DNA from: Candidatus Acidiferrales bacterium
Lineage (GTDB): Bacteria; Acidobacteriota; Terriglobia; Acidiferrales; UBA7541
Assembly (NCBI GenBank): GCA_030037315.1
Contig: JASHRM010000133.1
Span: 1 to 56,590 of the forward strand
DNA: 56,590 nucleotides
Direction of reading: 5' to 3'
Under the pieces are notes generated by a model. That model ran no database searches. It was not told the DNA's origin and worked only from the letters and a program-made list of their open reading frames with translations. A program made the translations under genes and the position numbers. Below are positions 24,735 to 42,063 of this stretch, piece after piece. Every line of letters begins with the position of its first letter. Position 1 is the stretch's first letter.

Positions 24735-27104
24735 ATGACGGCATGTCGAGGCCGGGGCGCCGCAACCGCGAGTCGGTATTTGGGCATAGCCGCTCTTGTT
24801 TTCGGGCTGGCCTGCGCGATTGGGGCCGCCCCACAACACTCCACAAGAGGCGAGCCAAACCGGCCGGTCCCGGCTACGTCATCCAGCGCATCGCAGCATG
24901 CCCGCCGGCTGACGGAGCCGGTCAACATCGTTCCGGTCGATGCAATCCGCGAAAACAATATTGGGATTGCGCTGATGGAGCGGCACATGTTTCCGGACGC
25001 GCTGGCGCGGTTTGAACGCGCGTGCATCCTGAATCCCAACTCCGATGTGGGGTGCCTGAATATGGGCATTGCCATGCTCAACATGCAGGATTATGACGAC
25101 GCGCGCAGAACCCTGACGAGGTCCGCTCAGCTCAAATCGCATAATCCGCGAACCTGGTTCAACCTTGGGCTGCTGGAACGCGCGATGGGGAATCTGCCGG
25201 CAGCCCAGAACGATTTTGAGAAAGTGGCGACGCTCGACTCTCACGACGCCGACACGCAATATTTTCTCGGCTACCTGGCAGCCGAAAGCCAGAACTATGA
25301 TGAGGCAATCGGGGATTACAAGAAGGCTCTCGAATTGGAGCCCTTTCACGCCTCGGCCGAATATGCGCTTTCGCAAGCCGAACAAAACACAGGCGACGCG
25401 GCAGATGCGAAAATCGACCTCGAGAAATTTCAGCGGATCACCACAAATCGTCTGAGCAAACCGATCCGGTTCGTATACGGCGAGCAAGGGAAATACTCTT
25501 TCGCGGAAGAAATGCCAGTACCAGAGCAGCATGCGTCAGCGGCGCTGCCGGTGCGGTTCGTCAACGTAACTGAGCTTTCGGGACTTCCCACACGGCCAGA
25601 TCGTCCCGCAAGCCTTCTGTACCGGAGAGGATCTCGAAGGACTCGAGCACGAGCGAGCAACCCAGTTCCTTCACCCGAATCGTTCGCGCAGTTCCTGGGC
25701 AGCGGTGCGTGCGTTTTCGATTACGACGGCGACGGCCTACCGGACATTTTTCTGGTCAATGCCGATGGCAGCGGCAACGCTGCACTTTTTCGCAACCAGG
25801 GACATGGCAAATTTCTCGATGTCACCAAAGCGGCGCATATCGATTTTCACGGTGAGGGAATGGGTTGCGCGACCGGCGATTACGACAACGACGGCCACAC
25901 CGATCTTGTTGTCAGTTCGAGCCACTCGCTTACGCTGCTTCATAACGAGGGTGACGGAACGTTCAAAGACGTGACGGACGAGACCGGAGTGCGAACGGAA
26001 ACACCCGATGGCGCACTGATCCTCGGCGTGACGTTCGTGGATTACGATGGCGACGGTGACCTGGACCTTTACGTCACGCGCCTGAACAATTTTCATGTGG
26101 CCCATCTGAGACAGCCATTCTTTTTCCCGGACGATTCCAAGGCTCCCGGTAATGTCCTCTGGCGCAATCAGGGCGGTGGAAAGTTCACAGACGTAACGGA
26201 GAAAGTCGGCGTCGCCGGAAGCGCGTCGGGTATTGGCGCAATCCCTTCGGACTTAACGAACACTGGCGCGCTCGATCTTGTGCTCACGGGCTGGTCGAAG
26301 TTCCCAACAGTGCTGCTCAATTCGCGCGAAGGATACTTCCGTGATTCCAATCCCTGGGCGATCAGCATGCCAGGTCCGGCGGCGGGAGGCATCGCGTTCG
26401 ATTTCGATCGGGATGGCTGGATGGATTTGGCGTTTACGCATTGGGCGCCACCCGGACTGAGCGTGTGGCACAACATTGCAGGCAAATCCTTCGAGCGAAT
26501 TCCGTTGGTGGCTCCGGGATGGATGCGCGGCTGGGGAGTTTCGGCCCTCGACTACGACAACGATGGCTGGGTCGACCTCGTTGCCGTCGGCGAAACGTTT
26601 TCAGGCGAAGGCCGCATCGCGCTCTTTCGCAACGCAGGTCCGAGCGAGCATGGGAATTTTCGCGATGTAACGCAACAAACCGGCCTCGACAAAATCGTGT
26701 TGCGCGATCCGCGTAGCGTGATCGCGTTTGACGCTGAAGGAAATGGCTCGACGTACCTGCTGATTACACAGAATGGGTTGCCGCCCATCTTGCTCAAAGC
26801 CACCGGGGGCGACAAGAACGGATGGATGCAACTGCAATTGGCGGGTGATCCGGACAACAAAACCGGCCTCGGCGCGAAAATCGATATTCTGGCTGGCGCA
26901 CAGCGGCAAACGGTGGAGACCGGAAATTCGTCTGGCTACCTGGGACAAGGTCCGGCCGCGGTCAGCCTCGGATTGGGTCCCGAGGAAGGCGTCGACGTTG
27001 TGCGCATCCACTGGCCCACCGGCGTGCTGCAAGACGAGATCGGTGTACGAGCGGAATCGCGAGTCCCCATTGCGGAAAGTGAGGCAGGCGATGCTCCAAA
27101 CTAA
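24735..27104 (+). CDS. Exported TPR / VCBS (FG-GAP) / UnbV-ASPIC (CRTAC-type) protein
   Basis: About 789 residues from ATG at 24735. Signal peptide at about 12-36. TPR repeats run from about 60 to 200 (NIGIALMERHMFPDALARFERAC, CLNMGIAMLNMQDYDDARRTL, YFLGYLAAESQNYDEAIGDY). Seven-bladed integrin-like VCBS repeats follow with calcium-binding DYDGDGLPD, DYDNDGHTD, DYDGDGDLD, DFDRDGWMD and DYDNDGWVD loops. The C-terminal UnbV/ASPIC domain has KTGLGAKIDILAG and SLGLGPEEGVDVVRIHWPTG. It is exported and probably binds calcium or surface polymers. A longer frame to 24507 lacks a credible signal peptide. TAGAAT at 24718-24723 suggests a very short leader. Confidence 0.88.
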   Translation: MTACRGRGAATASRYLGIAALVFGLACAIGAAPQHSTRGEPNRPVPATSSSASQHARRLTEPVNIVPVDAIRENNIGIALMERHMFPDALARFERACILNPNSDVGCLNMGIAMLNMQDYDDARRTLTRSAQLKSHNPRTWFNLGLLERAMGNLPAAQNDFEKVATLDSHDADTQYFLGYLAAESQNYDEAIGDYKKALELEPFHASAEYALSQAEQNTGDAADAKIDLEKFQRITTNRLSKPIRFVYGEQGKYSFAEEMPVPEQHASAALPVRFVNVTELSGLPTRPDRPASLLYRRGSRRTRARASNPVPSPESFAQFLGSGACVFDYDGDGLPDIFLVNADGSGNAALFRNQGHGKFLDVTKAAHIDFHGEGMGCATGDYDNDGHTDLVVSSSHSLTLLHNEGDGTFKDVTDETGVRTETPDGALILGVTFVDYDGDGDLDLYVTRLNNFHVAHLRQPFFFPDDSKAPGNVLWRNQGGGKFTDVTEKVGVAGSASGIGAIPSDLTNTGALDLVLTGWSKFPTVLLNSREGYFRDSNPWAISMPGPAAGGIAFDFDRDGWMDLAFTHWAPPGLSVWHNIAGKSFERIPLVAPGWMRGWGVSALDYDNDGWVDLVAVGETFSGEGRIALFRNAGPSEHGNFRDVTQQTGLDKIVLRDPRSVIAFDAEGNGSTYLLITQNGLPPILLKATGGDKNGWMQLQLAGDPDNKTGLGAKIDILAGAQRQTVETGNSSGYLGQGPAAVSLGLGPEEGVDVVRIHWPTGVLQDEIGVRAESRVPIAESEAGDAPN

Positions 27105-27162
27105 GCAATCGCGCAACGGCGAGGATTGGAAATTTGAGATTTCACACGGAGATTACGAAGGA

Positions 27163-28010
27163 TCAAAACTGCGTGATGCCGGGTCTTGTGTCCCTGTGCC
27201 ACGGCATCTTGAATTCCATTAGATTAGCGAAAGAGCGAGTCGGATTGAGGAACACGCGCACCATCGCACGCTTGCGATCGCTCTTCGTTTCATTTTCCCA
27301 GCGGCTGATGTATCGCTTATCGACGAAATCCTCGGTGACCATCCACGCCAAACCAGCGGTTGGGGTAATGACCCAATCGACGCCGCCGCGGGCCTTGGGA
27401 TTCTGTTGCACGTTTCCGATCGACGCCTCGCTGATCGGTCCAATTTCGAACTGCAAGCTATACGCCGCTGCGTACGCGGTGGCTCGCAGACGGCTTTTCC
27501 AATATCGGCTGTTCATATCGAATGTGGCGTCGCGATAGCGAGGGTCGTGTGCAATTTCCAGATAACTCGCGACAGCGCCTTCCATCGGGTGCGCGGCATA
27601 ATTCGTGAGGATTCCGTCGCCGTCGCCCCACTCGTGAATGTTCGCCACAGAGGCAGCGTAATCGCCGAAAAACGGCCCGGTCAGGCCTGCTCTCGTTTTC
27701 TCCTGAACTGCCAGTCGATATCCGTGTTCAACCAGAAGAAACCGCAGCGAATCCCGGATTAGGCCGCCCCATTCAATTCCTCCGCGCATTTGGTCTGGAG
27801 AGGGCGATGCTGCTGGATCGGAAGTGAGTCCGAGATCGCTCCAAAGTTGAAAACGAAATCGAGAGAAAGGGCGTCCCAAGTTTGCGCATCGGGTACGAGC
27901 GGTTCCGCACCGTCGTCGAGGATGCTCTGCGAATAAATTGCGGGGCACATTCCCGCAATAAAAGCCGACAACACCAGCTCAGACACTAAGACGCGCGGTT
28001 TGGTGGTCAA
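27163..28010 (-). pseudogene. Conserved exported protein split by a frameshift
   Basis: The 5' part (TTG at 28010 after GAGGAAACGAA, signal peptide ending about AIYSQS) runs to ...DFVFNFGAISDS, then goes out of frame. The sensible continuation TSDPAASPSPDQMRGGIEWGG lies in the next frame and runs to the stop at 27163. The shift lies at about 27821-27830 and looks like loss of one base. The rejoined protein would be about 280 residues: signal peptide, then a domain with SRYWKSRLRATAYAAAYSLQFEIGP and a C-terminal PTRSFANLMEFKMPWHRDTRPG. I recall similar exported proteins in acidobacteria but no function. A sequencing error is equally possible. Confidence 0.65.
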
Positions 28011-28203
28011 TTCGTTTCCTCGGCGAGATTCGAACGTGGAATCCTGAAGCGCAATCGATTATATATTCTCTTCATCCATCCGAACTGGCAATTGTGACAG
28101 CACGGTCGACCGGTAGAATGAAAGTAGCTATCGCTTGATCGATATATCCGCTGCGTGCTAATTTCAAATTATCCGTAGCGATTTGCACTCGCACACTCAA
28201 ACT

Positions 28204-30603
28204 ATGCCTTCATCGCAATCGGTCGCATCGGACGCGAAATCCGGACAGCGCAATCAGCATTCAGCGCCGGCTTCAGGCGATGAGCACGTCTTTTGGCGTG
28301 TCGAAGGCAGCCTGCTGAATCTGACGGCGGTCCGTCCCGTCGGATTCTTCACCTGGAACGCGCAGACGTTTTTGGAGCGCTGGACGCGGCGCGGCACGAT
28401 GGCTTTCCTCGCGCTGGCTCGCCCGTTTTTCTACGCGTCGGATCGAGTGTTCGCTACGCGTGTTTTGCATTCGGTGCTGCGCGGCGAAAGCCGCGACCGG
28501 CTGGATCTGCTCGGCGAAGAATTCTTCCACTACCATTTGCGGCCGCGACTGAAATCTCGCGGCGTGGCCGAACTGCAGCAACTGCTTGCAGGCGGCGCGA
28601 ATGTGGTTCTCGTAAGCCAGGGACTCGATCACATCATGCGGCCCCTGGCCCGCGAGCTGGGTGTGCGCTGGATTCTCTGCAACCGGCTCGATTTCCGCGA
28701 CGGAATTTGCACGGGACGCTTGCTGCATCCTGTGATCCGCCCTCGTGGGCCCTTTGCGAAATTGCGATCCGATCAGCCGGATGGCACCATCGCACGCTCC
28801 GAATTGCTGCACGACCTCGGATTTGCGAAGCAGCCGGAGGTTTTGGAGCAAACGATCCGGCCAACCGAGCGGATTATTCCGACTCCCTGCGTGCCCGTGG
28901 TTGACTTCGATTCGCACAAGAATGGAACGCCGCTTTCCGTGCGCGGCGCACTGAAAGGAAAACAGGTTCTCCTGATCGGCGGTACCGGATTCATCGGCAA
29001 GGTGTGGCTGGCGAATCTGCTGGCGGATGTGCCGGATATTGGTTGCGTGTATTTGCTGATCCGGGGACATCGCACCGCGACTGCACTGCAGCGCTTTCAG
29101 CGCATGATCGAAGAGTCCCCTGTTTTCGATCAACTCGCCGCAAAGCATGGCGACCGTTTGCTGGATTTTCTGGGCGAGCGCGTCGAGATTTTGAGCGGAG
29201 ATGCCAGCAAGCCTAACCTCGGGTTGGCGCCGGAAGTCCGGGAACGCGTTGGACGGACGCTTGATTTGATCGTCAACAGCGCGGGCCTCACCGATTTCAA
29301 TCCCGATTTGCGCGACGCGCTCTCGATGAACGTGCGGTCGACCGCCTACCTTCTCGATTTTCTGCGCCAGTGCGATCACGCCGCGTTGCTACACCTCTCC
29401 ACTTGCTACGCAGTGGGCCAGCGCGATGGACGCATCCTCGAGGATTTGCAGAAAAATTACGCGCCGTTCAATGCGCCAGGATTCGACGCGGAGAAAGAAT
29501 GGCGGTCGCTTGAGGAACTCGCCAAGCATACCGAGGCACGCGCCGATTCTGCCGAACTCACCGACGAGCTTCGCAAGCAGGCGCTTGAAAAGCGCCATGC
29601 CGCAAAGGATTTGCGCGGAGCTGCGCTCGATAACCAAATTCGCAAGAATCGCACGCGCTGGCTGCGGCAGTCCATGATGGAAGCAGGCACGAAGCGCGCC
29701 AACGAACTCGGCTGGCCGAACACCTACACGCTCACGAAAAGCATTTCCGAATCGCTGATCCGCAATTACCTCGATGCAAATCCGCGCGCGGCCATCGCGG
29801 TGGTGCGGCCGTCGATTGTCGAATCGTCGATCGAAAGGCCGTTCCTCGGTTGGAATGAGGGAGTAAACACTTCGGCCTCGCTTTCTTATCTATTGGGCAC
29901 GTTTTTCCGCCAGCTGCCGACGAACGCGAGCAAATGCCTCGATCTGATTCCGGTCGATTTGGTTTGCCGCGGCATGACGCTAATCGCTGCAGCTCTTGTT
30001 GAGCGCCGCAACGACCGCGTGTATCAGTTGGCCACGTCCGTCTCGAATCCATGCGACATGCGTCGCTCAATCGAGCTGACCGGATTGGGGCACCGTAAGT
30101 TTTACCGCTCGCAAAACGGGTTTCAGCATCGCTTGCGGCTGAAATTTGACGCGATTCCTGTCTCCAAGGCGCGCTACGAGAACCTTTCGGCACCCGCGCA
30201 GATGATCCTGGTGCAAGCTATCAATCGCACGATCGAAGAAATCCCGTTCGCGAAAGCGCCGCTGGCGCGCCAAGAGCGCGACCTTGAAAAAGTAATTAAA
30301 CTGATTGCGCTTTTCGAGCCGTTCATCTTGCACAACGACCATGTTTTCGAGGCGGCGAACGTCGAAAAACTCAGCGCTGCGCTGCCTGCCGACGAGCGCG
30401 AACTCTTCGCATACGACGCTCGCTCGCTTGATTGGTGGAACTACTGGATCAACGTGCACATTCCGGCGCTGCGAAAGTGGTGCTATCCTCTCATCGAGGG
30501 CCGTCCGCCGGAGGCGAACCGGCGCCGTACCGTGCCCATCGCGGGTCGTGGCGGGAATTCCGCTGATGGCTCGGCGGAAGCAGCTTCCGCGACCACGCCC
30601 TGA
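28204..30603 (+). CDS. Degenerate HAD-like domain fused to fatty acyl-CoA reductase
   Basis: About 799 residues from ATG at 28204 (a TTG at 28183 is also in frame). Residues about 25-185 resemble a HAD-IB phosphatase, but motif I reads RVEGSLL, where the nucleophile Asp is Arg and the second Asp is Glu. The motif II Ser is kept (VVLVSQG). No GDSxxD motif IV is seen. The reductase follows: nucleotide-binding GGTGFIG (about 259-265), active-site Tyr508 and Lys512 in YTLTK, and a C-terminal FAR_C/sterile domain ([12 protein letters not shown]...DWWNYW). FAR enzymes reduce acyl-CoA or acyl-ACP with NADPH to fatty alcohol or aldehyde. It is the first gene of the lipid operon. Confidence 0.9.
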
Positions 30604-30615
30604 CATCCGAAAACT

Positions 30616-31779
30616 GTGTCTATTTTCCTGACTGGAAGCACCGGCTACATTGGTGCCCACGTTGCGTCCAACCTGCTCGCGGATCATTCCGGGCCGCTCA
30701 ATCTGCTCGTCCGCGCAGGAACCGCGGAAGAGGCCAAGGCGCGCCTATGGCATTCACTGCAACTTCATATGGACTTGCCGTGCTTCGAAAATTATTTTCA
30801 CTCGCGCATTCGCGTATTTCGCGGCGACCTGACCGATGCGCATTTCGGACTTTCTGACGACGATTATCGCCAGCTCGTTCGTTCGACGGACTCGATCGTT
30901 CACTGCGCTGCGTCGCTGAACCGCAAATCGGAAAAGAGCTGCCTGAATGTGAATCTACGGGGCACGCTCGAAGTGATCCAGCTTGCGATGCGAGCCCGCG
31001 ACGATCACGGCTTGCGGCGATTCAGCCATGTGAGCACCGTCGCGGTCGCCGGCCAGCGCTCGAACGAAGTGATCGAGGAAGATGCGGGGATCGATTGGAG
31101 CCGTTCGGATTACGATCCCTACGCCCGCACGAAGAAATTCTGCGAGCACATGCTGACCCAGTTGCTTCCGGATGTGTCTCGCACGATCTTCCGCCCCAGC
31201 ATCGTGCTCGGCGATAGCCGCCGGCCCGAGACGAATCAGTTTGAGATGGTCCGTGCGTTCGTGTTTCTGGCGGGTCTGCCAGCGCTTCCCTTCCGCCCAA
31301 CCGATAAAGTGGATATCGTTCCTGTCGATTACGTCGCTGATGCAATCGCGACGATCCACCAGAAGGAAAATCCGGCCTACGGAATCTATCACCTCTCTTC
31401 CGGCGAGGACTCGGAGACGTTTCAAGAACTGACCGATGCGCTCGCGAAAGCGCAAGGCAAGCGCGGCCCGATGTTTGTTCCGGGCATGGAAAAACCATCG
31501 TCGAAGATCATCGACGCGCTGGCCGGCCGCGCCGGAAAAATCGGCGGCTTGGCCACGCTACTAAAAGTCTTCATTCCCTACCTGGTCTGGAACACGGTCT
31601 TCGATAATCGCCGGGTGATCGCCGAAATGGGCAGAAAACCGGTGCCGTTCTCGCAGTATTGCTTTCAATTGCTGCGATTCAGCCGCCAAAATCATTTCAA
31701 CTACAAATATGTTGACCTGCCGGCCGCCAACGCAGCTCTCGCCTCCGCACAGACCGCAGCTCAGGACGCGCCCCGATGA
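30616..31779 (+). CDS. NAD(P)-binding SDR, thioester-reductase-like (NAD_binding_4)
   Basis: 387 residues from GTG at 30616. The cofactor loop GSTGYIG is at 7-13, catalytic Tyr169 and Lys173 are in YARTK, and Ser is in [11 protein letters not shown]. The sequence order is like the reductase domain of carboxylate and thioester reductases ([35 protein letters not shown]). Together with the preceding FAR it could carry out the two reduction steps acyl thioester to aldehyde to alcohol, or reduce a different intermediate. 12 bp after the FAR gene, and its stop overlaps the next gene as ATGA. Confidence 0.87.
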
Positions 31780-33206
31780 TGGATATGGATGTGGCCATCG
31801 AGGCTTGGGTCAGCGGCCTGATCGAACTGAATAAGCTTGAATACGTGCTCGGCTCGGGAAAAACGTGGCGGCCAGGCGAAAAGCTCAAGCTGCTTTTCGC
31901 GGGCTACAACGGCACCCGAAATACCGGCTCCGACATTCGCGTCGAAGAAATCGTACGCCAGATTCGAAAGATTCTCGGCGAACAAAACATCGCCGCCACG
32001 GTAATGACGCAGAATTTCGAGCTGACGCGCGGCTACTTCGGCGACGCGCAGCAAGTTCACCTGCCCGATGTATTTCCTCCCTTTCTGAATTCCGAAGTGC
32101 GCAAGCACGACGGCGTGATCGCATGCGAAGGTTCGATGTTCAAAAGCAAATTTGCCAACGCGCTTTCCGCGATGATGATCGGCGCGCTCGGCATCGCGTC
32201 CGTCCGCAATAAGCTTAGCGTGGCCTATGGCGGCGAGGCCGGCGCGATGGACTCGCTTCTGCAAAAAATGTGCAAGCGCTATTGCCGCGGCTCGCTGGTA
32301 ATCACGCGGAATCCGGAATCGCAGGAAGTTCTGGGCAAGCTCGGCATCGCCACCGAACTCGGCGCAGATACGGCTTGGACGTTCGAGCCTCTCGGCAGCG
32401 ACTACGGCACGAAAGCCCTGCTCGATGCCGGATGGGACGGAAAAACACCTGTACTGGCTGTCGCTCCCATTAATCCCTTCTGGTGGCCGGTGAAGCCTTC
32501 GCTTACTAAATCCCTGGCGCACGCGCTGGCCGGCTCATACGAAAAAAGCTACTACCGCACTATTTATTTCCATCGCTCGGGCGCCGACGTGGACTTGGCC
32601 TACGCGAAATACCTCTCGGAAATAGCTGCGGGCGTTCAAGGGTACGCTGAAAATCACAAAGTCTTCCCTGTAATGATCGCGATGGAGATGCTCGACCGCG
32701 ATGCCTGCGAGCGCGTCGCGCAGAAAATCGGCGGCGCGCCCGTTTTCTGTTCAGACGAGCGCAACATGTACGAACTTGTGAGCATCCTGCGCGCATCTCA
32801 TCGGCTGCTTTCTTCGCGATTTCACGCGATCGTCACCTCGATGCCGGCGGGCGTTCCGTCGGCGGGTGTCACCATGGACGAACGCATCCGCAACTTGATG
32901 CACGACCGCGGTCATCAACACTTGCTGATGAATGTAGACGAGCCTGATCTCGCGGATAAAATCGCCGTTGCACTCCAGAGGCTCGATTCAGACGCGGAAG
33001 AAATTCGCGAGTCGATGGGCCGCTGCGTGGTGCGCAATCTGAAAATGATGTCGCGCATGGGCGTCTATTTTGAAGAGCATGTGGCGCGACAATATCCCGA
33101 CTTCCCCATCCGCACCGGCGTCCTCGGTTGGGAAGACTACTTGCCACCGCTAGAAGGATGCCTGCGCCACCTGCTTGAGAAATATGACGGGGCCATCGCC
33201 GCATGA
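31776..33206 (+). CDS. Polysaccharide pyruvyl transferase family protein
   Basis: 476 residues. Begins with a short helical region, then [29 protein letters not shown], which matches the N-terminal glycine-rich motif of CsaB/WcaK-type enzymes (GYYGxxNxGDE). [19 protein letters not shown] and the C-terminal [22 protein letters not shown] match the conserved SxRxH motif. The family transfers pyruvate from phosphoenolpyruvate to sugars in wall or capsule polymers. Its place in a lipid operon, with ATGA overlaps on both sides, is unusual and suggests that the lipid carries a ketal-modified or related head group, or that the fold has another use here. Confidence 0.82.
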
Positions 33207-34867
33207 CGTTTCTCGAGAAAATTTTCGAACGTCTCGAGACAAACCCGCAGGCCCCGGTGTTGCGCGAATTTAGCGATGGCCAGCTTGTTTCCGTCACGGC
33301 CGGCGAACTGCTCGCACTTATCGAACAGGCGTGGCGGTTTCTCGATGCGCGTGGATTAAAGCAAGGCGACCGCTGTGCGCTGCTCGCGCCCAATAGCATT
33401 CGCTGGGCGGCGCTCGACCTCGCGATGATGGCGCACGGTTTGATCGTCGTGCCTCTGTATGCGCGTCAGGCGCCCGCTGAGCTGGCGGGCATGATCGCGA
33501 ATTCGACTCCCACGCTGATCTGTTGCGCAGACGCCGCCATAGCTGGCGAATTGCGAAAACATCTCGATTCCGATGTACCAACCGCACTTTTCGACGAGAT
33601 ATTTACCTGGTCGAATACGGCTCCGGCAACGCCCCACCGGCACGCGGAAGCCGATCCCGTCACGATCATCTACACCTCCGGGACTTCGGGCGAGCCAAAA
33701 GGCGTAATTCTGAATGCGGGTAACGTAAATCACATGATCGGATGCACGAATGCGCGGCTCGATCGGTTGATGGGTCCGCGCAACGCTCCGGATCGCATTT
33801 TTCACTATTTGCCGTTTTGCTTTGCGGGTTCTTGGATTCTGCTGCTGACGGCGCTTTCGCGCTCCAGCACGCTGACTCTTTCGGCAGACCTCACGAAGCT
33901 GGCCGACGAGATGAAAGCCGCGGCACCCGATTACTTTATGAATGTGCCGACGCTGCTCGAGCGGGTGCGGACCAAGGTCGAAGAATCCATTCAAAAGCGC
34001 GGCGGATTCGCGACGAAACTTTTTGAGTTTGCTCGCGGAGGATATTTTCGCAAGCACAAAGGTGAGCCGCGACTTGTCGGCTCGCTTGCACTCTTGCTTG
34101 CGCGCAAACTGATGTTTCCTGGGATCCGCGCAAATATCGGGCCGAATCTCAAGGCGCTGATCTGCGGATCGGCGCCGCTCTGTTTGGAAACGCAGCTCTT
34201 TTACCTCATGATCGGCATCCCAGTCCTGCAAGTCTACGGACTTACGGAAACCACGGCGATCTGTACAATGGATGACCCGAGGAAATTCGAGCCCGGTCGC
34301 GTGGGTCCAGCGATTCCAGGAGTCGAAATGAAAACGGCGAACGACGGCGAAATCCTTGTTCGCGGTCCGAATATCTTTCCGGGCTACTGGCAGCGTCCTG
34401 CGGAAACAGCGAAGGCGCTGGCTGGCGGCTGGTTCCACACTGGAGATATCGGCGACGTGGATGCCAATGGAAATTGGGCACTTACGGGCCGCGTGAAAAA
34501 TCTGATCATTCTGAATTCCGGCCACAACATCGCGCCCGAACCGATCGAGGAAAAACTGTCCTCCGCTCTTCCGGAGGCGCAGCAGGTCGTTTTGCTCGGC
34601 AATCAACGCAGTTTTCTTGCCGCTCTTATCACAGTTGCCGGAAACGGATCAGGCAATGGCGCTTATCAGGCACACATCCAATCCGTTTTGAATGCTGCTA
34701 ACGCCAATCTGCCTCACTACAAGCAAATCCGTGCATTTCATCTCGTGTCGGAACTTTTTAGCGTTGAGAATGGTCTGCTAACAGCGAACGGCAAGCTGAA
34801 GCGCGACGCGATTGCCGCTCGGTACGCCGGCGAAATCGAGACGATGTATCAGAAAAGGCTCGCATGA
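33203..34867 (+). CDS. AMP-forming acyl-CoA/acyl-ACP ligase (first of two)
   Basis: 554 residues. The adenylate-forming core has P-loop IIYTSGTSGEPKGV, YGLTETTAI (motif A5), WFHTGDIGDVD (A7) and GRVKNLIILNSGHNIAPEPIE (A8). The C-terminal catalytic lysine is in NGKLKRDAI. It activates a carboxylic acid with ATP and transfers it to CoA or to an acyl carrier protein; an ACP gene lies 0.9 kb downstream. The ATG overlaps the previous stop as ATGA, and so does the next gene. Chain length cannot be read from sequence, but the neighbours suggest long-chain acids. Confidence 0.92.
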   Translation: MTFLEKIFERLETNPQAPVLREFSDGQLVSVTAGELLALIEQAWRFLDARGLKQGDRCALLAPNSIRWAALDLAMMAHGLIVVPLYARQAPAELAGMIANSTPTLICCADAAIAGELRKHLDSDVPTALFDEIFTWSNTAPATPHRHAEADPVTIIYTSGTSGEPKGVILNAGNVNHMIGCTNARLDRLMGPRNAPDRIFHYLPFCFAGSWILLLTALSRSSTLTLSADLTKLADEMKAAAPDYFMNVPTLLERVRTKVEESIQKRGGFATKLFEFARGGYFRKHKGEPRLVGSLALLLARKLMFPGIRANIGPNLKALICGSAPLCLETQLFYLMIGIPVLQVYGLTETTAICTMDDPRKFEPGRVGPAIPGVEMKTANDGEILVRGPNIFPGYWQRPAETAKALAGGWFHTGDIGDVDANGNWALTGRVKNLIILNSGHNIAPEPIEEKLSSALPEAQQVVLLGNQRSFLAALITVAGNGSGNGAYQAHIQSVLNAANANLPHYKQIRAFHLVSELFSVENGLLTANGKLKRDAIAARYAGEIETMYQKRLA

Positions 34868-35667
34868 AGAGCTTTCGCGGCAAAACGCTTTCGTGGGCGC
34901 TATCCAGCGGCACGATTGAACTCGTTCTGGATCGCGCACCCTGCAATGAAATCGGCTCTGAAACCCTGCCCGAGCTCGAACAATTCGTCACGGCTTTGCC
35001 AGAGCTTCAAGAAGATGCACCCGCGCTGATCATTTCCAGCGCACGCAAACAAGGATTTTGCGCCGGCGCGGACTTGCGCGAACTATACGAGCGTTCCCAG
35101 GGCCTAGACGTAAGCGACAAGCGCGCCAGTGTGCGGAATTTCATCGAAAGAATTCATCGGGTGATGAACGCGCTCGACTCCGCTCCGCTTACAACGATTG
35201 CCGCAGTACATGGGGTCGTTTTTGGCGGAGGTTTCGAGCTGGCTCTCACCTGCGATCTAATTATCGCCGACAAAATGGCACGGTTTTGCTTTCCGGAATT
35301 GCGGCTCGGGCTGATTCCCGGCTTCGGGGGCATTCCGCGCCTCAAGCGCGATCTGGGGAACGCGGTCGTGCGCGACCTGCTGCTCACCGGCCGCAGCATC
35401 AATGCGGCAAAGGCACAGTCTGTCGGGTTGGTCAGCCAGGTGACTGCCGAAGGCGACGCTCTGCGCGTCGCGCGTGCCACAGCGGCGCAGCTCGGGAAAT
35501 TCGATCGCCATACGGCGCTCGAAGCCAAGAAATTCATCAAGCCGGTTCCGTTCGATGAGCTCCGCGAAGAAATCGATATTTTTTGCGAACTGATTGCGCG
35601 ACCTGCGGTCGAAAGCGGATTGCGCAAGTTCGTTGAAAGCAAGGACGCGCTGCCGTATCTGCCTTGA
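34864..35667 (+). CDS. Enoyl-CoA hydratase/isomerase family protein
   Basis: 267 residues. Crotonase fold with oxyanion-hole segments ISSARKQGFCAGADLREL and GVVFGGGFELALTCDLIIA. Both catalytic glutamates are present: in GGGFELAL and in CFPELRLGLIPGFGG. It may therefore hydrate a trans-2-enoyl thioester or act as an isomerase. Most of the C-terminal helices are normal. ATGA overlap with the ligase upstream places it in the same operon, where it would modify an activated chain. Confidence 0.9.
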   Translation: MKSFRGKTLSWALSSGTIELVLDRAPCNEIGSETLPELEQFVTALPELQEDAPALIISSARKQGFCAGADLRELYERSQGLDVSDKRASVRNFIERIHRVMNALDSAPLTTIAAVHGVVFGGGFELALTCDLIIADKMARFCFPELRLGLIPGFGGIPRLKRDLGNAVVRDLLLTGRSINAAKAQSVGLVSQVTAEGDALRVARATAAQLGKFDRHTALEAKKFIKPVPFDELREEIDIFCELIARPAVESGLRKFVESKDALPYLP

Positions 35668-35728
35668 GCGGCTGGCTTGATTTCGTCGAAGAGAATTGGC
35701 CGCGACAAACTGTGCGAAAATAGCGCTC

Positions 35729-35971
35729 ATGCCTGACATCGACACGACGACGAATCAGATTCTCGATCTGGCTTCGACGCACTTCAAGGTGCCGCGCGAG
35801 CAGCTTTCGCCCGACGATGACTTTTTCAAAAAGCTTGGCATCGATAGCCTGCAAGCCTTGAGTCTGCTGACGCGCATCGAGGGCCACTTCCACATCGAGC
35901 TACCCGATTACGAATTGCAAGGCGTCACAGATTTCCGCACGCTGGCCGAACGAATACAATCCCGCCTGTGA
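35729..35971 (+). CDS. Acyl carrier protein, stand-alone
   Basis: 80 residues from ATG at 35729. The phosphopantetheine site is Ser40 in LGIDSLQALSLLTRIE. Acidic four-helix composition as in AcpP. It is not next to fabD/fabG/fabF, so it is a dedicated carrier for the lipid operon rather than the main fatty-acid-synthase ACP. The stop overlaps the next gene start as GTGA. The charging enzyme is probably one of the two neighbouring AMP ligases. Confidence 0.93.
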   Translation: MPDIDTTTNQILDLASTHFKVPREQLSPDDDFFKKLGIDSLQALSLLTRIEGHFHIELPDYELQGVTDFRTLAERIQSRL

Positions 35972-36369
35972 GCCACCGAGACACAGAGACATCTGATCTG
36001 ACTGAACTCAACGAACTGACCGAGAAAATCATCGGTTGCGCCATCGAAGTCAACCGTAACCTCGGACCGGGTCTTCCTGAATCAACTTACGAAGAGGCGC
36101 TATCCATTGAACTCGCCGATGCCGGTATTGAGCATGCAAGGCAATTGCCCTTCCCGATGTTTTACAAGGGCCGACCTCCCGGCATGAACCGTTTGGATCT
36201 AGTAGTGCGGAACGCTGTCATCGTTGAAATTAAGAGCGTCGAACGTTTCGATCCAATCTTTGCGGCTCAGGTTCTGACTTACCTGCGCGCGACCGGAAAA
36301 AAGATCGGACTTTTGATACATTTCAACTCGCGCCTGCTTCGCGATGGAGTGAAGAGGTTTATTCTGTGA
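35968..36369 (+). CDS. GxxExxY-family protein (PD-(D/E)xK nuclease-like)
   Basis: 133 residues from GTG at 35968. Family motif GxxExxY as GLPESTY. The nuclease-like core is [17 protein letters not shown], followed by [21 protein letters not shown]. This family is scattered over many phyla; its role is unknown, though a PD-(D/E)xK fold suggests nucleic acid cleavage. It is bounded by an imperfect 21-bp inverted repeat (35971-35991 and 36384-36404) and is unrelated to its lipid-gene neighbours. I read it as an inserted cassette. The first residues, SHRDTE, are encoded by the repeat itself. Confidence 0.85.
35971..35991 (+). repeat. Left arm of inverted repeat bounding the GxxExxY gene
   Basis: Contains CCACCGAGACACAGAGACA. 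Its reverse complement matches the right arm (36384-36404) at 17 of 21 positions by eye. The arm begins exactly at the ACP stop and lies within the start of the GxxExxY frame. Confidence 0.6.
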
Positions 36370-36383
36370 TTTCTCTTCCTTTT

Positions 36384-36404
36384 TGTCTCGCTGTCTCTGC
36401 GGCT
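36384..36404 (-). repeat. Right arm of inverted repeat bounding the GxxExxY gene
   Basis: Contains TGTCTCGCTGTCTCTGCGG, which pairs with the left arm at 17 of 21 positions. It ends 8 bp before the start of the next ligase gene, so the unit fits neatly between two operon genes. Similar CAGAGACACAGAG sequences commonly flank this gene family (my recollection). Confidence 0.6.
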
Positions 36405-36412
36405 GCGTGCTG

Positions 36413-38122
36413 ATGCTGGATCTCCACCAATACAACTGCCTCGGTGAAGCGCTGCGGGCAGCGATCGACCGCTGGCCGGACGAAATCTGCCTGATCGAAT
36501 CGGATCGCGACCGTGAAAACACGCGCCTCACCTATCGCGAATTTAAGGAAGCCGCGCTTCCCTTCGCGCGCGCGTTGCAGGACGCCGGTTTCCGGCCCGG
36601 CTCGCGTGCGGCGATTTTGATGACGAATCAATCGAAATGGCTGATCTCCGCTTACGCAATCTTTTTCGCTGACGGCGTGCTCGTTCCGTTGGATTACATG
36701 CTGAAGGCTCCGGACCAGATCAAACTTTTTGCGCACTCCGGCGCTGAAGTCTTGATCGCCGAATATCACCTTTGGCGAGAAATCGCGAAGGCTTCTAACC
36801 TTGACGGCCTTTCCGCCAAGCTCATAATTGCCGTCAACGCGCCACCGGACGCCGACCTGGGCGGCGCCAAGCGCTGGGAGGAATTTCGCAGCGGGCAAGA
36901 GCCTCAATTCGCCGCGCGTGGGCGAAAAGACCCCGCGTGCATCGTCTATTCGTCCGGAACGGGCGGCCGCCCGAAAGGTTGCGTGCTGACGCACGAAAAT
37001 TATTTGGAGCAGGCGGCGGCAGTCGCGCCGGTTTTTCCCTTTTCGCCAGGCGATCGCTATCTCAGCATTATCCCAACGAATCACGCCATCGACTTCATGG
37101 GTGGATTTATCATGCCGTTCACGGGCGGCGGCACGGTTGTACATTTGCGAACCCTGCGTCCTGAATTGATTCGAAGCGCGTTCACAAAATACAAAATTAC
37201 TTACATGGCGGTCGTGCCGCTCATCCTGAAGAACCTGCAGAACGGACTTCGCGAGCGATTTGCTGCTTTGCCTGCGGGCAAGCGCCGCATGCTCAAAGTG
37301 CTCACTGCGGTGAATTCCACTCTCACTCGCGACCGGCCCCGCCTATGGTTCAGCCGGTTCTTGCTCAAGGACATTCACCAGGCCTTCGGCGGCGGCCTGC
37401 GGGCGTTGCTTGTCGGCGGAGCGTTCACCGACCCGTCGCTCATCGAATTTTTCCACGATCTCGGAATTCCGATTTACAACGGTTATGGCTGTACGGAGGC
37501 GTGCACGGCGATTACGTTGAACGATCTTCGCCCATTTCGCCCGGACACCGTCGGCCGCCCGGTCGCCGGTATGGAGATTCGCACTCTGAATTTGAACGCG
37601 GAAGGAATCGGCGAAGTTGCAGTACGCAGCAGAACGGTGATGTCGCGGTATCTGAATGATCCGGAAATGACGGCCGAAACGATCGTCGATGGTTGGTTGA
37701 TCACCGGTGACCTGGGCCGCATCGACGCGAGCGGCCAGCTCAAGCTTTTCGGGCGCAAGAAAAATATGATTGTCACCGAAGAAGGCAAGAACATTTACCC
37801 TGAGGACGTCGAAGCGGCCTTCGAAGGCATTCGAGTGAAGGAATTCTGCGTGTTCGCAGCAAATTATTTGTGGCCGGCTCATACCATGACGGGCGAGCAA
37901 CTCGTCGCCGCCCTGCATCTCGATTCGGGCCAGTCCCTGACGGACGAACTTGTGAAAGATCTGGCCGATCGGAATCGCCGCTTGCCGAACTACAAGCGTA
38001 TCAGCGGATATTTTGTTTGGGATGCGGATTTTCCGCGTACCGCGTCCATGAAAATCAAGCGCGTCGACCTTGCGAATCAAATCCGGGGACAGGTGCATCG
38101 CGACGTGATGGCGCCCCTATGA
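36413..38122 (+). CDS. AMP-forming acyl-CoA/acyl-ACP ligase (second)
   Basis: 569 residues from ATG at 36413. P-loop [21 protein letters not shown]5 [18 protein letters not shown]7 [12 protein letters not shown]8 [21 protein letters not shown], and C-terminal Lys near [12 protein letters not shown]. The core is like long-chain fatty acyl-CoA synthetases. It is clearly distinct from the first ligase, so the pathway activates two different acids or loads two carriers (CoA and ACP). It follows the inserted GxxExxY unit. Confidence 0.92.
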
Positions 38123-38165
38123 TTTGCCGTCCATATTTCTCGCGCAGGATCATCGCAGCGTGAGC

Positions 38166-39062
38166 ATGCGCTTTTTCGCCGTTGTGAATCCCGCGGCGGG
38201 CGGCGGACGCTCCGGCAAGCTCGCGCCAGCTGCTCTCGATCGCATCCGCAAGCTGGGCATCGAAATGGAGGTTGCGCGAACCACGCGCGCAGGTGATGGC
38301 GTGACGCTCGCGCGCGACGCCTACACGCGCGGCTTCCGCAATTTCCTCGCTGTCGGCGGCGACGGCACTTCGTACGAGATCGTGAATGGCATTTTTCCAG
38401 CCGCGCTGACCGAAGGCAAACCTGCGCTCGCCTTTTTGCCGCTGGGCACAGGCAATTCTTTCTTGCGCGATTTCACCGAACGCGGGGTGGAACATACGAT
38501 CGATTCTTTGCGCGCCGGCAAGAAGCGCTCGTGCGACGTGATTCGGCTGCGTCACTCGCGGGGCGAGATCTATTTCATCAACACGATGAATTTAGGTTTC
38601 GCAGCCGATGCCGGCGAAGTGGCAAATCGTGAATTCAAGCGCTGGGGCGAACTGGGATACATTTTGGGCGTTTTCACAAAACTCGTGCGCCTGAAACACG
38701 CCGCCTTTCCGCATCGCCTCGATGAATCGCGTGAATGGGATCGCCGCCCGTGCCTGTTTCTTGCGTTCGGCAATAGCAAGTTCACCGGCGGAAAAATGAT
38801 GATCGCGCCGCATGCCGATCCCTCGGACGGCATCATCGAATACGTTCGATGGTCGCCAGTCGGACGCCTTCGGCTGCTTTGGACATTTCCGCGATTATTT
38901 ACCGGCACGCACATCGATCATCCACTGGCCGGCCGCGCAGGCGCGAAGCGCGTCGATTTCGATCTGAACGGCCCGGCGAACGTGATCGTCGACGGAGAGG
39001 TAATGCAGCTCGACTGCCGGTCCATCGAAATTCTCCCGGCAGCGCTCGACATCTTCGCATGA
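38166..39062 (+). CDS. Diacylglycerol/sphingoid-type lipid kinase (DAGK_cat, YegS/LCB5 family)
   Basis: 298 residues from ATG at 38166 (a GTG at 38160 is also possible). NPAAGGGRSGKL and the glycine-rich GGDGTSYEIVNG are the ATP-binding signature, and PLGTGNSFLRDF is the typical loop. The C-terminal beta domain ends FDLNGPANVIVDGEVM. The family phosphorylates diacylglycerol, sphingoid bases or other lipid alcohols in the cytoplasm. Following a fatty acyl reductase, a lipid-alcohol kinase role is plausible. ATGA overlap with plsC. Confidence 0.9.
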   Translation: MRFFAVVNPAAGGGRSGKLAPAALDRIRKLGIEMEVARTTRAGDGVTLARDAYTRGFRNFLAVGGDGTSYEIVNGIFPAALTEGKPALAFLPLGTGNSFLRDFTERGVEHTIDSLRAGKKRSCDVIRLRHSRGEIYFINTMNLGFAADAGEVANREFKRWGELGYILGVFTKLVRLKHAAFPHRLDESREWDRRPCLFLAFGNSKFTGGKMMIAPHADPSDGIIEYVRWSPVGRLRLLWTFPRLFTGTHIDHPLAGRAGAKRVDFDLNGPANVIVDGEVMQLDCRSIEILPAALDIFA

Positions 39063-39814
39063 GAAAAACGTGGCTCACCGTCCGCTCGCTGACTTTATGG
39101 GCGATCAGCGGCATCCATTTCGTGGTGGTGGCGAGTGTCTTAATCCTGATCGGAATGTTGATCGATCCGCGCAAAAACGATAAGCCTCAGCGCGTTTTCT
39201 TTCGCAATGTTCTGCGTTTCGCCGGCGTAAAATTCGAAGTTCGCAGGTCGCCTGGATTCGACCCCGATCGAACCTGCATTTTCATGTGCAATCACGTAAA
39301 TATCTTCGATCCCTTCGTGATTTATTCCGCGATTCCGCAATTCGTACGTGGGTTCGAACTTGAATCCCATTTCAAGCTGCCCATTTACGGCTGGATGATG
39401 GGACACTTCGGCGGAAACATCCCGGTTCCTGACGTGCCGACGCTCAAGAGTCTTGCGAAGATGAATCGGCTCGCCAAGGAATCGCTCGATTCGGGTATCA
39501 GCCTGATTGCATTTGCCGAAGGTTCGCGAACGCGTGACGGCCACGTCCATGAATTCAAGAAGGGTGTTTTCAAGATCGCCCAGAAATTGCGTGTGCCCAT
39601 CGTGCCGATGAGCATTGTGGGTTCATACCAATTCTTTCAGACCGGCAACTGGATGCTCTATCCGGGGAAAATCACCGTCTACCTGCACGACACGATTGAC
39701 AGCTCCGAGATCCCGCGCGACCTAGAAAACTTCTGCGAGCGGGTGCGGCAAATCGTCGCCGCGCCGGTGGACGAATCGCTGAAGCAGTTCCCGCCGCCGG
39801 ATCAGAGAGGCTGA
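39059..39814 (+). CDS. PlsC-type lysophospholipid acyltransferase
   Basis: 251 residues from ATG at 39059. N-terminal membrane segment about 15-34. Acyltransferase motif I has HX4D (His79, Asp84 in NHVNIFDPF), motif III has EGSR at 154-157, and motif IV is VPIVPMSIVGS. The family acylates lysophosphatidic acid or similar acceptors at the membrane. It is the last gene of the lipid operon, overlaps the kinase by ATGA, and shares 13 bp of 3' end with the convergent phosphatidyltransferase gene. Confidence 0.92.
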   Translation: MRKTWLTVRSLTLWAISGIHFVVVASVLILIGMLIDPRKNDKPQRVFFRNVLRFAGVKFEVRRSPGFDPDRTCIFMCNHVNIFDPFVIYSAIPQFVRGFELESHFKLPIYGWMMGHFGGNIPVPDVPTLKSLAKMNRLAKESLDSGISLIAFAEGSRTRDGHVHEFKKGVFKIAQKLRVPIVPMSIVGSYQFFQTGNWMLYPGKITVYLHDTIDSSEIPRDLENFCERVRQIVAAPVDESLKQFPPPDQRG

Positions 39815-40449
39815 GGCACGCTGGCTCCGGGAATGGAGCGCCCCGCCCGCAATTCTTTCCAGGTGTAAACCACGCGGTGAATCACCGTAATCGTCGAGAT
39901 CGTGGCGATCACCCAGAGCACGGGCGCCATTCGCATCGACGCGCCGCCGATAATCAGCAGGACGAGCCGCTCCGGCCGCTCCATGAAGCCGACTTTGCAC
40001 GACGGGATTAAGGATTCGGCACGTGCCCGCGAATAGCTGACCATAAACGAACTGGCCATCGCCACCGCCGCCAGCACCATATAAAACGTGCGCCCAATCA
40101 GCGTGTAGTAGACGACCAGCCCCATGTAAAGCGCGAGGTCGGAATAGCGGTCGAGCGTGGAGTCGAGAAATCCGCCAAATGCCGTCACTTGTCCGGCGCG
40201 CCGCGCCACCTGGCCGTCGGCCATGTCGAGAAATCCCGCGAGAAATAGGACGCCCGCAGCCTGACGGAAAAGTCCCATGGCAAAAAGAGCCGCCGCCGCG
40301 GAATTAACGATCAGTCCGAGGTAGGTGAACATGTTGGGCGTGAGGCCGGTGGCCGTAAGGCCGGTCACCACATGCTGTAGCAGCCAGCCCGCTCCTTCGC
40401 CGATCCAATACGTGATGGGGCGCTTCAAATTTTCGCGGCCATTCTGCAT
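39802..40449 (-). CDS. CDP-alcohol phosphatidyltransferase
   Basis: 215 residues from ATG at 40449, about five to six membrane helices. The family motif DGxxAR-x8-Gxxx-Dxxx-D is complete (Asp78, Gly79, Ala82, Arg83, Gly92, Asp96, Asp100). These enzymes join CDP-diacylglycerol and an alcohol such as glycerol 3-phosphate, inositol phosphate or serine. The alcohol is not deducible. It converges on plsC with a 13-bp overlap, so the lipid region may extend to it functionally. Confidence 0.9.
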   Translation of the reverse strand: MQNGRENLKRPITYWIGEGAGWLLQHVVTGLTATGLTPNMFTYLGLIVNSAAAALFAMGLFRQAAGVLFLAGFLDMADGQVARRAGQVTAFGGFLDSTLDRYSDLALYMGLVVYYTLIGRTFYMVLAAVAMASSFMVSYSRARAESLIPSCKVGFMERPERLVLLIIGGASMRMAPVLWVIATISTITVIHRVVYTWKELRAGRSIPGASVPQPL

Positions 40450-40580
40450 TCTGAAAACATCATAGCATTGCGCTGATGCAAAACGAGGGGGGGTGCCGGC
40501 CGCACCGGCGTTCGCCGCGGTTCGTTCCATGGCTAATGCTTGGCGGCGTGCCCGAACGCATCGGTTCTGTCATCTCGAAC

Positions 40581-40601
40581 CATCCGCGATTTTTGCGGAT
40601 G
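40581..40601. repeat. Perfect 7-bp inverted repeat between ddl and the phosphatidyltransferase
   Basis: CATCCGC (40581-40587) and GCGGATG (40595-40601) around the 7-nt loop GATTTTT. No T-run follows on either strand, so terminator function is weak; it may be a small intergenic palindrome (REP-like). Confidence 0.45.
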
Positions 40602-40642
40602 TGTGAGGGAGCTGCGGTGCCTTTTTCCGGAATCCGAAATGA

Positions 40643-41776
40643 TCAAGCGTCCAGCGCGCCGCCGCTGCCTTCCGGTAATTCGATCGAATATTTCGTGCGG
40701 GCCTTTTCGCGATGAAGTTCAAAGGCAAGCTCGATCAGCTTGTCGATCAATTTCGGATAGGGCAGTCCTGAGGCTTCCCACATCTTCGGATACATACTGA
40801 TCGCAGTAAAACCGGGAATCGTGTTTAGTTCGTTCACGAAAATCTTGCCGGTTTTCTTTTCAAGGAAGAAATCGCAGCGCGCCATTCCGGTGCCGTCAAT
40901 GGCGCGAAACGCGCGCACCGCATATTCCTGAATAATCCTCACTTGCTTTTTCGCAAGGGGCGCGGGAATCAGCAGCCGAGTTCCCTCCTCCAGATATTTT
41001 GCCGCGTAATCATAAAATTCACGGTGCGGCAAAATTTCGCCCGGAATCGAAGCGCGAACGTCGTCATTGCCGAGCACGGAAACTTCGATCTCGCGCGCCG
41101 TCACGCAGCGCTCCACCAAAATCTTCAGCGCGAATTCGCCTGCCAGATCCAGCGCGCCGGAGAGTTCGTTCGCCTTATTTACGCGCGTCATACCAACGGA
41201 CGAGCCCAGTGTCGCGGGCTTCACGAAAACGGGAAAACGAAATTTCTTTTTGATCGCGCGAATCACTTTCGCGCGGTCCGCTTCCCACTCCGAGCGCCTT
41301 ACGGCGATAAACGGGACGATCGGAATGTCCGCCTGCTCAAAAAGCCGCTTCTGGACATCCTTATCCATTCCGACCGCCGACGCCAGCACGCCCGCGCCCA
41401 CGTAGGGCAGCCCTGTTAATTCAAGCAGCCCCTGCACCGTGCCGTCTTCGCCAAACGTGCCGTGCAACACCGGGATCACCACGTCCACCGCAACGCTCGG
41501 GCGCTCTGCGCTTGGCGTCAGCGGAATCAGTGCCGCGGAAGTAGGATCGGGCGGCAGCCACACGCGCTCGCCGGATCTCAGCACTTCCGGCAACATCTTC
41601 TGTGCCGGCGAACCGACCAGCCACCGGCCGTCTTTCGTAATGCCGATTGGGACTGCTTCGTACTTTTCGGGATCGAGCGCGCGAATGACCGATGCGGCCG
41701 ACGCGAGCGAAACCTCATGTTCGCCCGAGCGCCCGCCAAAAATCACGCCAACGCGGAGCCGTTTGTTTGCAGTCAT
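40643..41776 (-). CDS. ddl: D-alanine--D-alanine ligase
   Basis: 377 residues. Joins two D-alanines for peptidoglycan. N-terminal GVIFGGRSGEHEVSLASA, then HGTFGEDGTVQGLLELTGLPYVG, central ATP-grasp FVKPATLGSSVGM, and metal-binding FLEKKTGKIFVNELNTIPGFT. All are classic Ddl signatures. The length is slightly above that of E. coli DdlB. Monocistronic in this context. Confidence 0.96.
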   Translation of the reverse strand: MTANKRLRVGVIFGGRSGEHEVSLASAASVIRALDPEKYEAVPIGITKDGRWLVGSPAQKMLPEVLRSGERVWLPPDPTSAALIPLTPSAERPSVAVDVVIPVLHGTFGEDGTVQGLLELTGLPYVGAGVLASAVGMDKDVQKRLFEQADIPIVPFIAVRRSEWEADRAKVIRAIKKKFRFPVFVKPATLGSSVGMTRVNKANELSGALDLAGEFALKILVERCVTAREIEVSVLGNDDVRASIPGEILPHREFYDYAAKYLEEGTRLLIPAPLAKKQVRIIQEYAVRAFRAIDGTGMARCDFFLEKKTGKIFVNELNTIPGFTAISMYPKMWEASGLPYPKLIDKLIELAFELHREKARTKYSIELPEGSGGALDA

Positions 41777-42063
41777 ATGAATTGCGCCTGAAGACGAACT
41801 TCATTTGTATGCCAGCGGCGATCGAATTGCGAGCCGTCACCGCAGCGTCGATGCCCATTCAAACAACTCGCGCGGTCAAACCGGACAGGTTGCGCACCAA
41901 AACAAATCTGAGTCGTCCTACAGCGTATCGCATCGAATCTTGCACGATGAGATCGCCTCACATTTCGCTGTTTTGAGGTGTTCGGGGAAGCTTCGCAGGA
42001 TAGCGGTCTGTCGAGTCGGTAAGTCGTAACCCATGCGTTGGCAGCAAATCCAAAGGAGACGTC

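Follow-up and report, generated by a model that had tools for sequence, protein, structure and literature searches.

The Acidobacteriota are among the supposed makers of the branched ether lipids used for past-temperature reconstruction (PMC11868695, PMC10087280), and the closest described relative of the system reported here is the elb operon of Myxococcus xanthus. In that operon, ElbA and ElbE are NAD epimerases, ElbB is a HAD protein, ElbC is of unknown function, and ElbD joins fatty acyl reductase (FAR), acyl ligase (ACS), acyl carrier protein (ACP) and acyltransferase (AT) domains in the order FAR-ACS-ACP-AT (PMC9131029). Here we describe a different FAR-containing operon, at positions 28204-39814 of contig JASHRM010000133.1 from a soil bacterium of the Candidatus Acidiferrales (assembly GCA_030037315.1, 83% complete); "the window" denotes the whole 56,590-nucleotide stretch analysed. 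We confirm that the operon exists and that it is strongly conserved, and its gene content makes it look like an undescribed way to build membrane lipids from fatty alcohols, possibly ether lipids.

The ether-bond route in Acidobacteria has been called unclear, with elb or agps in only some subdivision 4 genomes (PMC11868695), and Solibacter usitatus is given as being without ElbD (PMC10087280). Iso-diabolic glycerol ether is abundant in most subdivision 4 cultures, and of 17 cultures from subdivisions 1 and 3, two have it in small amounts (PMC13274423), and elbD-type clusters have been described from sponge Acidobacteriota and Poribacteria (PMC9426513). Among the open-licence PMC papers listed in our searches, we found none on the gene set described here.

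Gene content and conservation of the operon

A sequence-only reading of this DNA had proposed ten plus-strand genes of named families, all of which were confirmed, together with a convergent CDP-alcohol transferase, which is present with its full motif. The features are as follows:

28204..30603, plus strand: FAR, a degenerate HAD-like N-terminus fused to a fatty acyl reductase (NAD_binding_4 and Sterile; Pfam)
30616..31779, plus strand: SDR, a short-chain dehydrogenase/reductase, thioester-reductase-like (NAD_binding_4; Pfam)
31776..33206, plus strand: PPT, a PS_pyruv_trans (PF04230) pyruvyltransferase homologue with a GT-B-like predicted fold (Pfam, E 2.1e-7)
33203..34867, plus strand: ACS1, an AMP-forming acid-thiol ligase (AMP-binding, E 1.8e-58)
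34864..35667, plus strand: ECH, enoyl-CoA hydratase family, with both Glu-bearing motifs present (Pfam; aligned to EchA8)
35696..35971, plus strand: ACP, acyl carrier protein (PP-binding, E 1.4e-13)
35968..36369, plus strand: GxxExxY (PDDEXK_3), an inserted gene outside the pathway core (NCBIfam, 129 bits)
36383..38122, plus strand: ACS2, a fatty-acid thiol ligase (AMP-binding, E 5.2e-70)
38124..39062, plus strand: DAGK, a YegS/DAGK-type lipid kinase (Pfam)
39059..39814, plus strand: PlsC-type acyltransferase (Pfam; start at 39059 read from the sequence)
39802..40530, minus strand: CDP-OH, a CDP-alcohol phosphotransferase, a convergent accessory neighbour (complete CDP-alcohol motif)

The open reading frame (ORF) of FAR opens at 28183, and the ATG at 28204 fits the start proposed for it by the sequence-only reading; the PlsC start overlaps the DAGK stop. 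The tight packing by ATGA/GTGA overlaps described in that reading holds at five junctions, where neighbouring genes overlap by four bases (SDR/PPT, PPT/ACS1, ACS1/ECH, ACP/GxxExxY and DAGK/PlsC), but not at the other four, which do not overlap when the first possible starts are used (FAR/SDR, 12 nt apart, ECH/ACP, GxxExxY/ACS2 and ACS2/DAGK). A promoter-like match at 28092 was discarded, as four such matches were found against 4.6 expected from shuffles, and a search for repeats across 27000-42000 returned nothing remarkable.

The FAR search covered 61 genomes, the window's own and those of its relatives. FAR of the window type was found in 36 of these, from 15 genera (in G006 and G014 as fragments only; labels in G and L are ours for genomes and loci), and a different FAR type in nine; one more genome, G024, gave a HAD-like match alone. 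Loci were examined for 26 of the 35 other window-type carriers, chosen by the presence of FAR. SDR, PPT and ACS1 are each found in all 26, ECH, ACP and ACS2 each in 25, DAGK in 24, PlsC in 22 and CDP-OH in 17, with some absences being slice or contig ends. The core order across relatives is FAR, SDR, PPT, ACS1, ECH, ACP, ACS2, DAGK and often PlsC, and we found no standard operon that matches this set, as the earlier reading had held. The linkage on which that reading staked its claim, including the co-occurrence of FAR with PPT and ACP, was borne out by these loci. Its list of members needs correction: PlsC is not present in every locus (see the named loci below), CDP-OH is ruled out as a core gene over wider distances by its count and is a frequent neighbour, and GxxExxY, within the operon in only two of the 26 relative loci, is ruled out as a pathway member and is a hitchhiker.

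A scan of named genomes with the PPT alignment gave 373 stretches carrying either of two peptide patterns; a relative is encoded by 363 of them, and the best 80 were mapped. These 80 carriers are all metagenome-assembled genomes (MAGs), the nearest PPT relatives being in MAGs titled Candidatus Acidiferrales and Terriglobia; several of the loci are on the same contigs as the 26 above, so that the two sets share genomes. FAR is present in 74 of the 80, and in the other six the leftmost match lies at most 0.6 kb from the locus end. The full gene set is found with an adjoining CDP-OH in 15 loci and without it in 11, while 22 keep the order through DAGK with no PlsC match (20 of them with at least 3 kb beyond DAGK). 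Most of the remaining loci end at contig edges, and three (L112, L163 and L168) are rearranged.

Several insertions were seen along the way. GxxExxY genes occupy two different places, between ACP and ACS2 in the window, L046 and L052, and between PPT and ACS1 in L169. The ECH-ACP junction also accepts insertions, recognised by eye as putative HigB/HigA-like pairs and peptidase-like ORFs (L046:13047-13707, L052:7767-8441, and in L043, L044 and L057), and in one relative a 561-aa ORF that looks radical-SAM-like by eye lies between ACS1 and ECH (L067:9644-11326). The whole operon is additionally found on records titled Latescibacterota (L131, the chromosome CP070763.1) and Acidimicrobiia (L164, a MAG); with titles taken as recorded, these are cases of either transfer or mislabelled MAGs.

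The genes are inherited together beyond these loci. In a phylum sample of 297 genomes, with at most four to eight candidates scored per genome, a PPT orthologue (at least 58% identity; up to five candidates scored) was found in nine genomes, an ECH orthologue (at least 64%) in exactly the same nine, and an ACS2 orthologue (at least 59%; four candidates scored) in these nine again, which span five families. Among the candidates scored, the one other ACS2 match at threshold, in G198, falls within an ORF of 1444 aa, which contains a FAR match as well and would by length and content be an ElbD-type protein. Together with the 26 loci, this shared occurrence supports the claim of a linked and co-inherited lipid gene set.

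Genomes in which the operon has come apart tell the same story. Six genomes have an operon that looks interrupted or partial where FAR lies (G028, G190, G120 and those of L112, L168 and L163), and each of them still has the ECH and ACS2 orthologues. Three (G120 and the genomes of L168 and L163) have ECH within the FAR locus; ACS2 lies about 5.6 kb away on the same contig in the L163 genome, and in the L168 genome its match spans 386 of 579 residues. Where broken operons were mapped (G028, G190, G120 and G353), FAR-SDR-PPT-ACS1 stands apart from ACP-ACS2-DAGK-PlsC, and ECH accompanies one part or the other or is on its own. G120 also carries a second PPT-like gene outside the operon, 34-35% identical (L188, L193:9493-10878).

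Comparison with elb and other ether-lipid systems

For the comparison with elb, Acidobacterial loci of the described architecture were used in place of the myxobacterial ElbD sequence. By domain scan, L235 encodes a HAD protein, a LarA-like protein and a FAR-ACS-ACP-AT protein of 1457 aa, along with an NAD epimerase and a DAGK in convergent orientation, and L234 has the fused FAR-ACS-ACP-AT form at 1447 aa. A split form is seen in L036, with FAR, ACP-ACS-AT, PlsY, HAD, LarA-like, epimerase and DAGK genes, and L035 has a fused ACP-ACS-AT and PlsY by domain scan, along with FAR and HAD matches. DAGK adjoins the elb-type loci L235, L036 and L038.

The same loci are accompanied by a LarA-like (PF09861) gene (L036:15053-16766, L038:2491-4152, L235:6504-8096), which is perhaps the "unknown" ElbC. 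LarA-type enzymes carry out hydride chemistry on hydroxy acids, which may bear on the elb mechanism.

Like elb, the window operon encodes a FAR, an acyl ligase, an ACP and a PlsC-type acyltransferase together, and it also has a HAD-like domain and an SDR of the extended type, a possible counterpart of the NAD-dependent enzymes of elb. The sequence-only reading had stated that no known ether-lipid gene is present here; on the contrary, elb is built from parts of these kinds, which here take the form of separate genes. The differences lie in how the parts are arranged and in what is added. ElbD is a single multidomain protein, whereas the window has four separate genes; ElbB is a free-standing HAD, whereas the HAD of the window is degenerate, fused to FAR and has its Asp nucleophile replaced. 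The LarA-like gene is not in the window operon, which has PPT, ECH and the second ligase ACS1 in addition. The window SDR has NAD_binding_4 as its best Pfam match, while the best match of the L235 and L036 proteins is Epimerase.

At the level of sequence, FAR and the FAR domain of L235 share 33% identity, and ACS2 is 28-29% identical to two ElbD ligase domains versus 23% to the one other ligase compared. The closest ACS2 relative reported outside the operon in the 297 genomes, with four candidates scored in each, is in an ElbD-type ORF. A FAR match (up to five candidates scored per genome) was found in 40 of the 297: the nine PPT genomes, 28 genomes with the match in ORFs of 1442-1525 aa, two of which were domain-scanned (L234 and L235), and three with it in ORFs of 508-654 aa. 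No genome was seen to hold both FAR systems, with 36 and nine carriers among the 61 genomes and nine and 31 among the 297, and such mutual exclusivity fits alternative solutions to one need. The two systems alternate even within family f3, where G038 and G041 have the window type and G039, G040 and G042 have a FAR with DAGK nearby (a LarA-like gene was shown in G040 only).

Two other routes to ether lipids were compared. The AGPS route (the MXAN_1676 operon and the L034 cluster) resembles the window operon in having a FAR-made fatty alcohol and an acyltransferase, and differs in that the window operon is without AGPS. L034 has a FAR-HAD-PlsY cluster and AGPS, PlsY having been scanned in this locus only; in both L034 and L033, of family f5, FAR-HAD-PlsY lies beside an AGPS-type FAD oxidase of about 600 aa, forming an animal-like ether-lipid set. 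No AGPS linked to FAR was found among the window genes; PF02913 was searched in the 61 genomes, and 31 of the places listed were compared with the L034 AGPS. An AGPS-dependent route for the window type was set aside, as among the matches compared G004 is the only carrier with an AGPS-like gene, other partial PF02913 matches in carriers (e.g., G008:C155) lying outside the comparison. PlsA/Ger would also give alkyl ethers, but no such gene is in the operon, and by the papers' account PlsA/Ger reduces a finished ester lipid and needs no FAR.

Active sites and the pyruvyltransferase homologue

The catalytic motifs of the operon's enzymes appear largely intact, apart from the fused HAD. FAR has the fatty acyl-CoA reductase 7eoz as its best solved relative (E 2e-43) and keeps its Rossmann and YxxxK motifs in 26/26 relatives. 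Its fusion, which the sequence-only reading had reported, is present, although the partner has to be corrected to a HAD-like domain (approximately residues 33-196, counted from the ORF opening at 28183) without the catalytic Asp. This nucleophile is absent in all 27 sequences, from the window and 26 relatives; the fused domain reads FWRVEGS or similar, where the free-standing HADs of related clusters read FYDLDGT, FYDLEGT or FYDFDGT. Because the nucleophile is missing throughout, a role as a working phosphatase was rejected, and the fused HAD is probably a structural remnant.

For SDR, the best solved relative is MxaA (4u7w, E 2.8e-19), and the SDR motifs are found in 26/26 relatives. ACS1 is related to FadD11, malonyl-CoA synthetase and CAR, and in both ACS1 and ACS2 the nucleotide-binding loop is preserved apart from small changes (for ACS1 the row of L061 is blank, as the ORF there is broken, and for ACS2 that of L056 is without its C-terminus at a slice end). 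The ECH motifs GGGxEL and PExxLG are kept in 25/25 relatives, the phosphopantetheine Ser of ACP in the window and 25/25, the GGDGT motif of DAGK in 24/24, the NHxxxxD of PlsC in 22/22 (with EG of the second motif changed to EA in L043 and L068) and the full CDP-OH motif in the window and 17/17.

PPT exceeds the PF04230 cut-off (31.6 bits versus 25.3) and falls far short of that of the CsaB model (66.3 bits versus 213.1), which none of 41 relatives reaches. A PPT profile gave no match to solved structures up to E = 1. The AlphaFold model (pLDDT 87) matched UDP-GlcNAc 2-epimerases and glycosyltransferases in Foldseek at TM about 0.4-0.5, a fold that we take to be GT-B-like. Residues R178, R348-x-H350 and R370 are conserved in all 27 rows. 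For CsaB, binding of phosphoenolpyruvate (PEP) is indicated by mutants of R148, H308 and K328 and predicted for R306, and K328R stays active (PMC10435577). PPT R370 stands at the same H+20 spacing as CsaB K328, with K changed to R, a mapping made by spacing and through a paralogue, with no direct CsaB alignment; the paralogue, L238, has a better CsaB score and shows R, RxH and K, with the K at the same spacing. PPT belongs with the ketal pyruvyltransferases CsaB and Pvg1p to PF04230 and, judged by spacing, would have their PEP-binding R, RxH and basic residue, but it lies in a lipid operon, far under the CsaB cut-off and with no sugar pathway around it. A PEP-like donor for PPT is plausible on this pattern of residues. 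An N-terminal amphipathic helix was considered as evidence of membrane binding and dropped, its moment being only at the 70th percentile.

Proposed pathway and alternatives

We propose that the eight to nine genes of this operon make a glycerolipid derived from a fatty alcohol, with an alkyl ether phospholipid as the likeliest product, and that they would work like elb with the multidomain protein split into separate genes; we give this proposal about an even chance of being correct. ACS2 would load a fatty acid onto ACP (or CoA), and FAR would reduce the loaded acyl group to a fatty alcohol. The alcohol would then be joined to a three-carbon unit, with PPT, as a PEP-type transferase, the candidate ether-forming enzyme, and the three-carbon unit would be processed by ACS1, ECH and the thioester-reductase-like SDR. 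Finally, DAGK would phosphorylate the lipid alcohol and PlsC acylate it, after which the CDP-alcohol transferase could act. Gene set, co-inheritance, motifs and family membership are what the sequences supply, and from these we infer the step order, the product and every substrate.

A more specific version, a de novo route that takes the glycerol backbone from PEP, we regard as unlikely. PPT would join the fatty alcohol made via ACS2, ACP and FAR to PEP, giving a 2-alkoxyacrylate (an enolpyruvyl ether), whose carboxyl group ACS1 would activate. ECH would hydrate the terminal double bond to a 2-O-alkylglyceroyl thioester, and SDR, with or without FAR, would reduce this to 2-O-alkylglycerol, which DAGK would phosphorylate and PlsC acylate to yield sn-2 alkyl ethers. 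The chemistries invoked are those of the families, namely enolpyruvyl transfer (MurA), enoyl thioester hydration and thioester reduction (MxaA, CAR). Such a route would account for the grouping of a PEP-type transferase with a second ligase, a hydratase and a thioester reductase, and it uses every conserved gene. The split between FAR-SDR-PPT-ACS1(-ECH) and ACP-ACS2-DAGK-PlsC in broken operons would match a division into making an alkylglycerol and turning it into a phospholipid, though both halves would draw on ACP and ACS2. Bacteria do contain 2-O-alkyl glycerols, and the formation of sn-2 alkyl ethers was called unknown in 2017 (PMC5552659).

Several observations weigh against an ether-lipid operon of the elb kind. 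There is no AGPS and no established ether-forming enzyme in the operon, and no lipid data were found for any carrier. Identity to the elb parts is low, at 24-33%; blastp of the window SDR against the ElbE-type epimerase of L235 gave no match, only FAR domains, and no DAGK match was seen next to L035, one of the elb-type loci. The 50 Foldseek matches listed for PPT do not include the solved structure of the pyruvyltransferase Pvg1p (5ax7). The exclusivity of the two FAR systems gives a value of 1.2e-4 in the 61 genomes that ignores kinship, and the figure for the 297 genomes alone is not significant (0.37). The carrier G004 has its AGPS-like gene elsewhere, unlinked and 33% identical to the L034 AGPS. 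DUF2229 (PlsA-like) genes occur in 22 of the 61 genomes, in 12 of the 36 carriers (the window's own genome, G000, included), five of the nine with the other FAR and five of the remaining 16, so that some carriers may make ethers another way; these genes are not exclusive with the operon, none lies within it, and the G000 copy is elsewhere.

The operon could alternatively make a fatty-alcohol glycolipid or a pyruvylated lipid, with FAR producing the alcohol, PPT acting either as a sugar transferase of the GT-B kind or as a pyruvyltransferase that forms ketals on a sugar-lipid, and the other genes giving the acyl chains. The best Foldseek matches of PPT speak for this, as do the characterised PF04230 enzymes, which act on lipid-linked sugars (PMC6801904). 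However, no other glycosyltransferase or nucleotide-sugar enzyme is among the ten window genes, ACS1, ECH and SDR would be left without a clear role, and PPT appears, by spacing, to keep the PEP-site residues; we regard this alternative as unlikely. Fatty-acid salvage or phospholipid remodelling, in which the ligases, ACP, DAGK and PlsC recycle chains and FAR does no more than remove surplus acyl groups as alcohol or wax, draws on the fact that the module ACP-ACS2-DAGK-PlsC, which in G028, G190, G120 and G353 is separate from FAR, would be enough to turn a lipid alcohol into phosphatidate. We nevertheless think it distinctly unlikely: ACS2 orthologues, with four candidates scored per genome, are confined to the nine PPT genomes of the 297, so this module was not seen without the other, and no wax synthase is among the ten genes, the rest of the genome not having been searched for one.

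An ACP, a ligase, an SDR and a DAGK are also found around bacterial sphingolipid genes, which would allow a sphingolipid- or sulfonolipid-like pathway. This is highly improbable, none of the ten window genes being serine palmitoyltransferase-like (a result that covers these ten genes and not the remaining genome). That the genes are unrelated neighbours packed by chance describes the inserted GxxExxY gene alone; for the set as a whole it is refuted by the linkage data, namely the order conserved in most of the 80 named and 26 other loci and the co-occurrence in the 297 genomes, and we leave it practically no probability.

As a possible ether-lipid operon, this co-inherited FAR gene set offers a concrete set of genes for the question of where the ether lipids of the Acidobacteriota come from. 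If PPT does use PEP on a fatty alcohol, it would represent a new way of building a lipid backbone.

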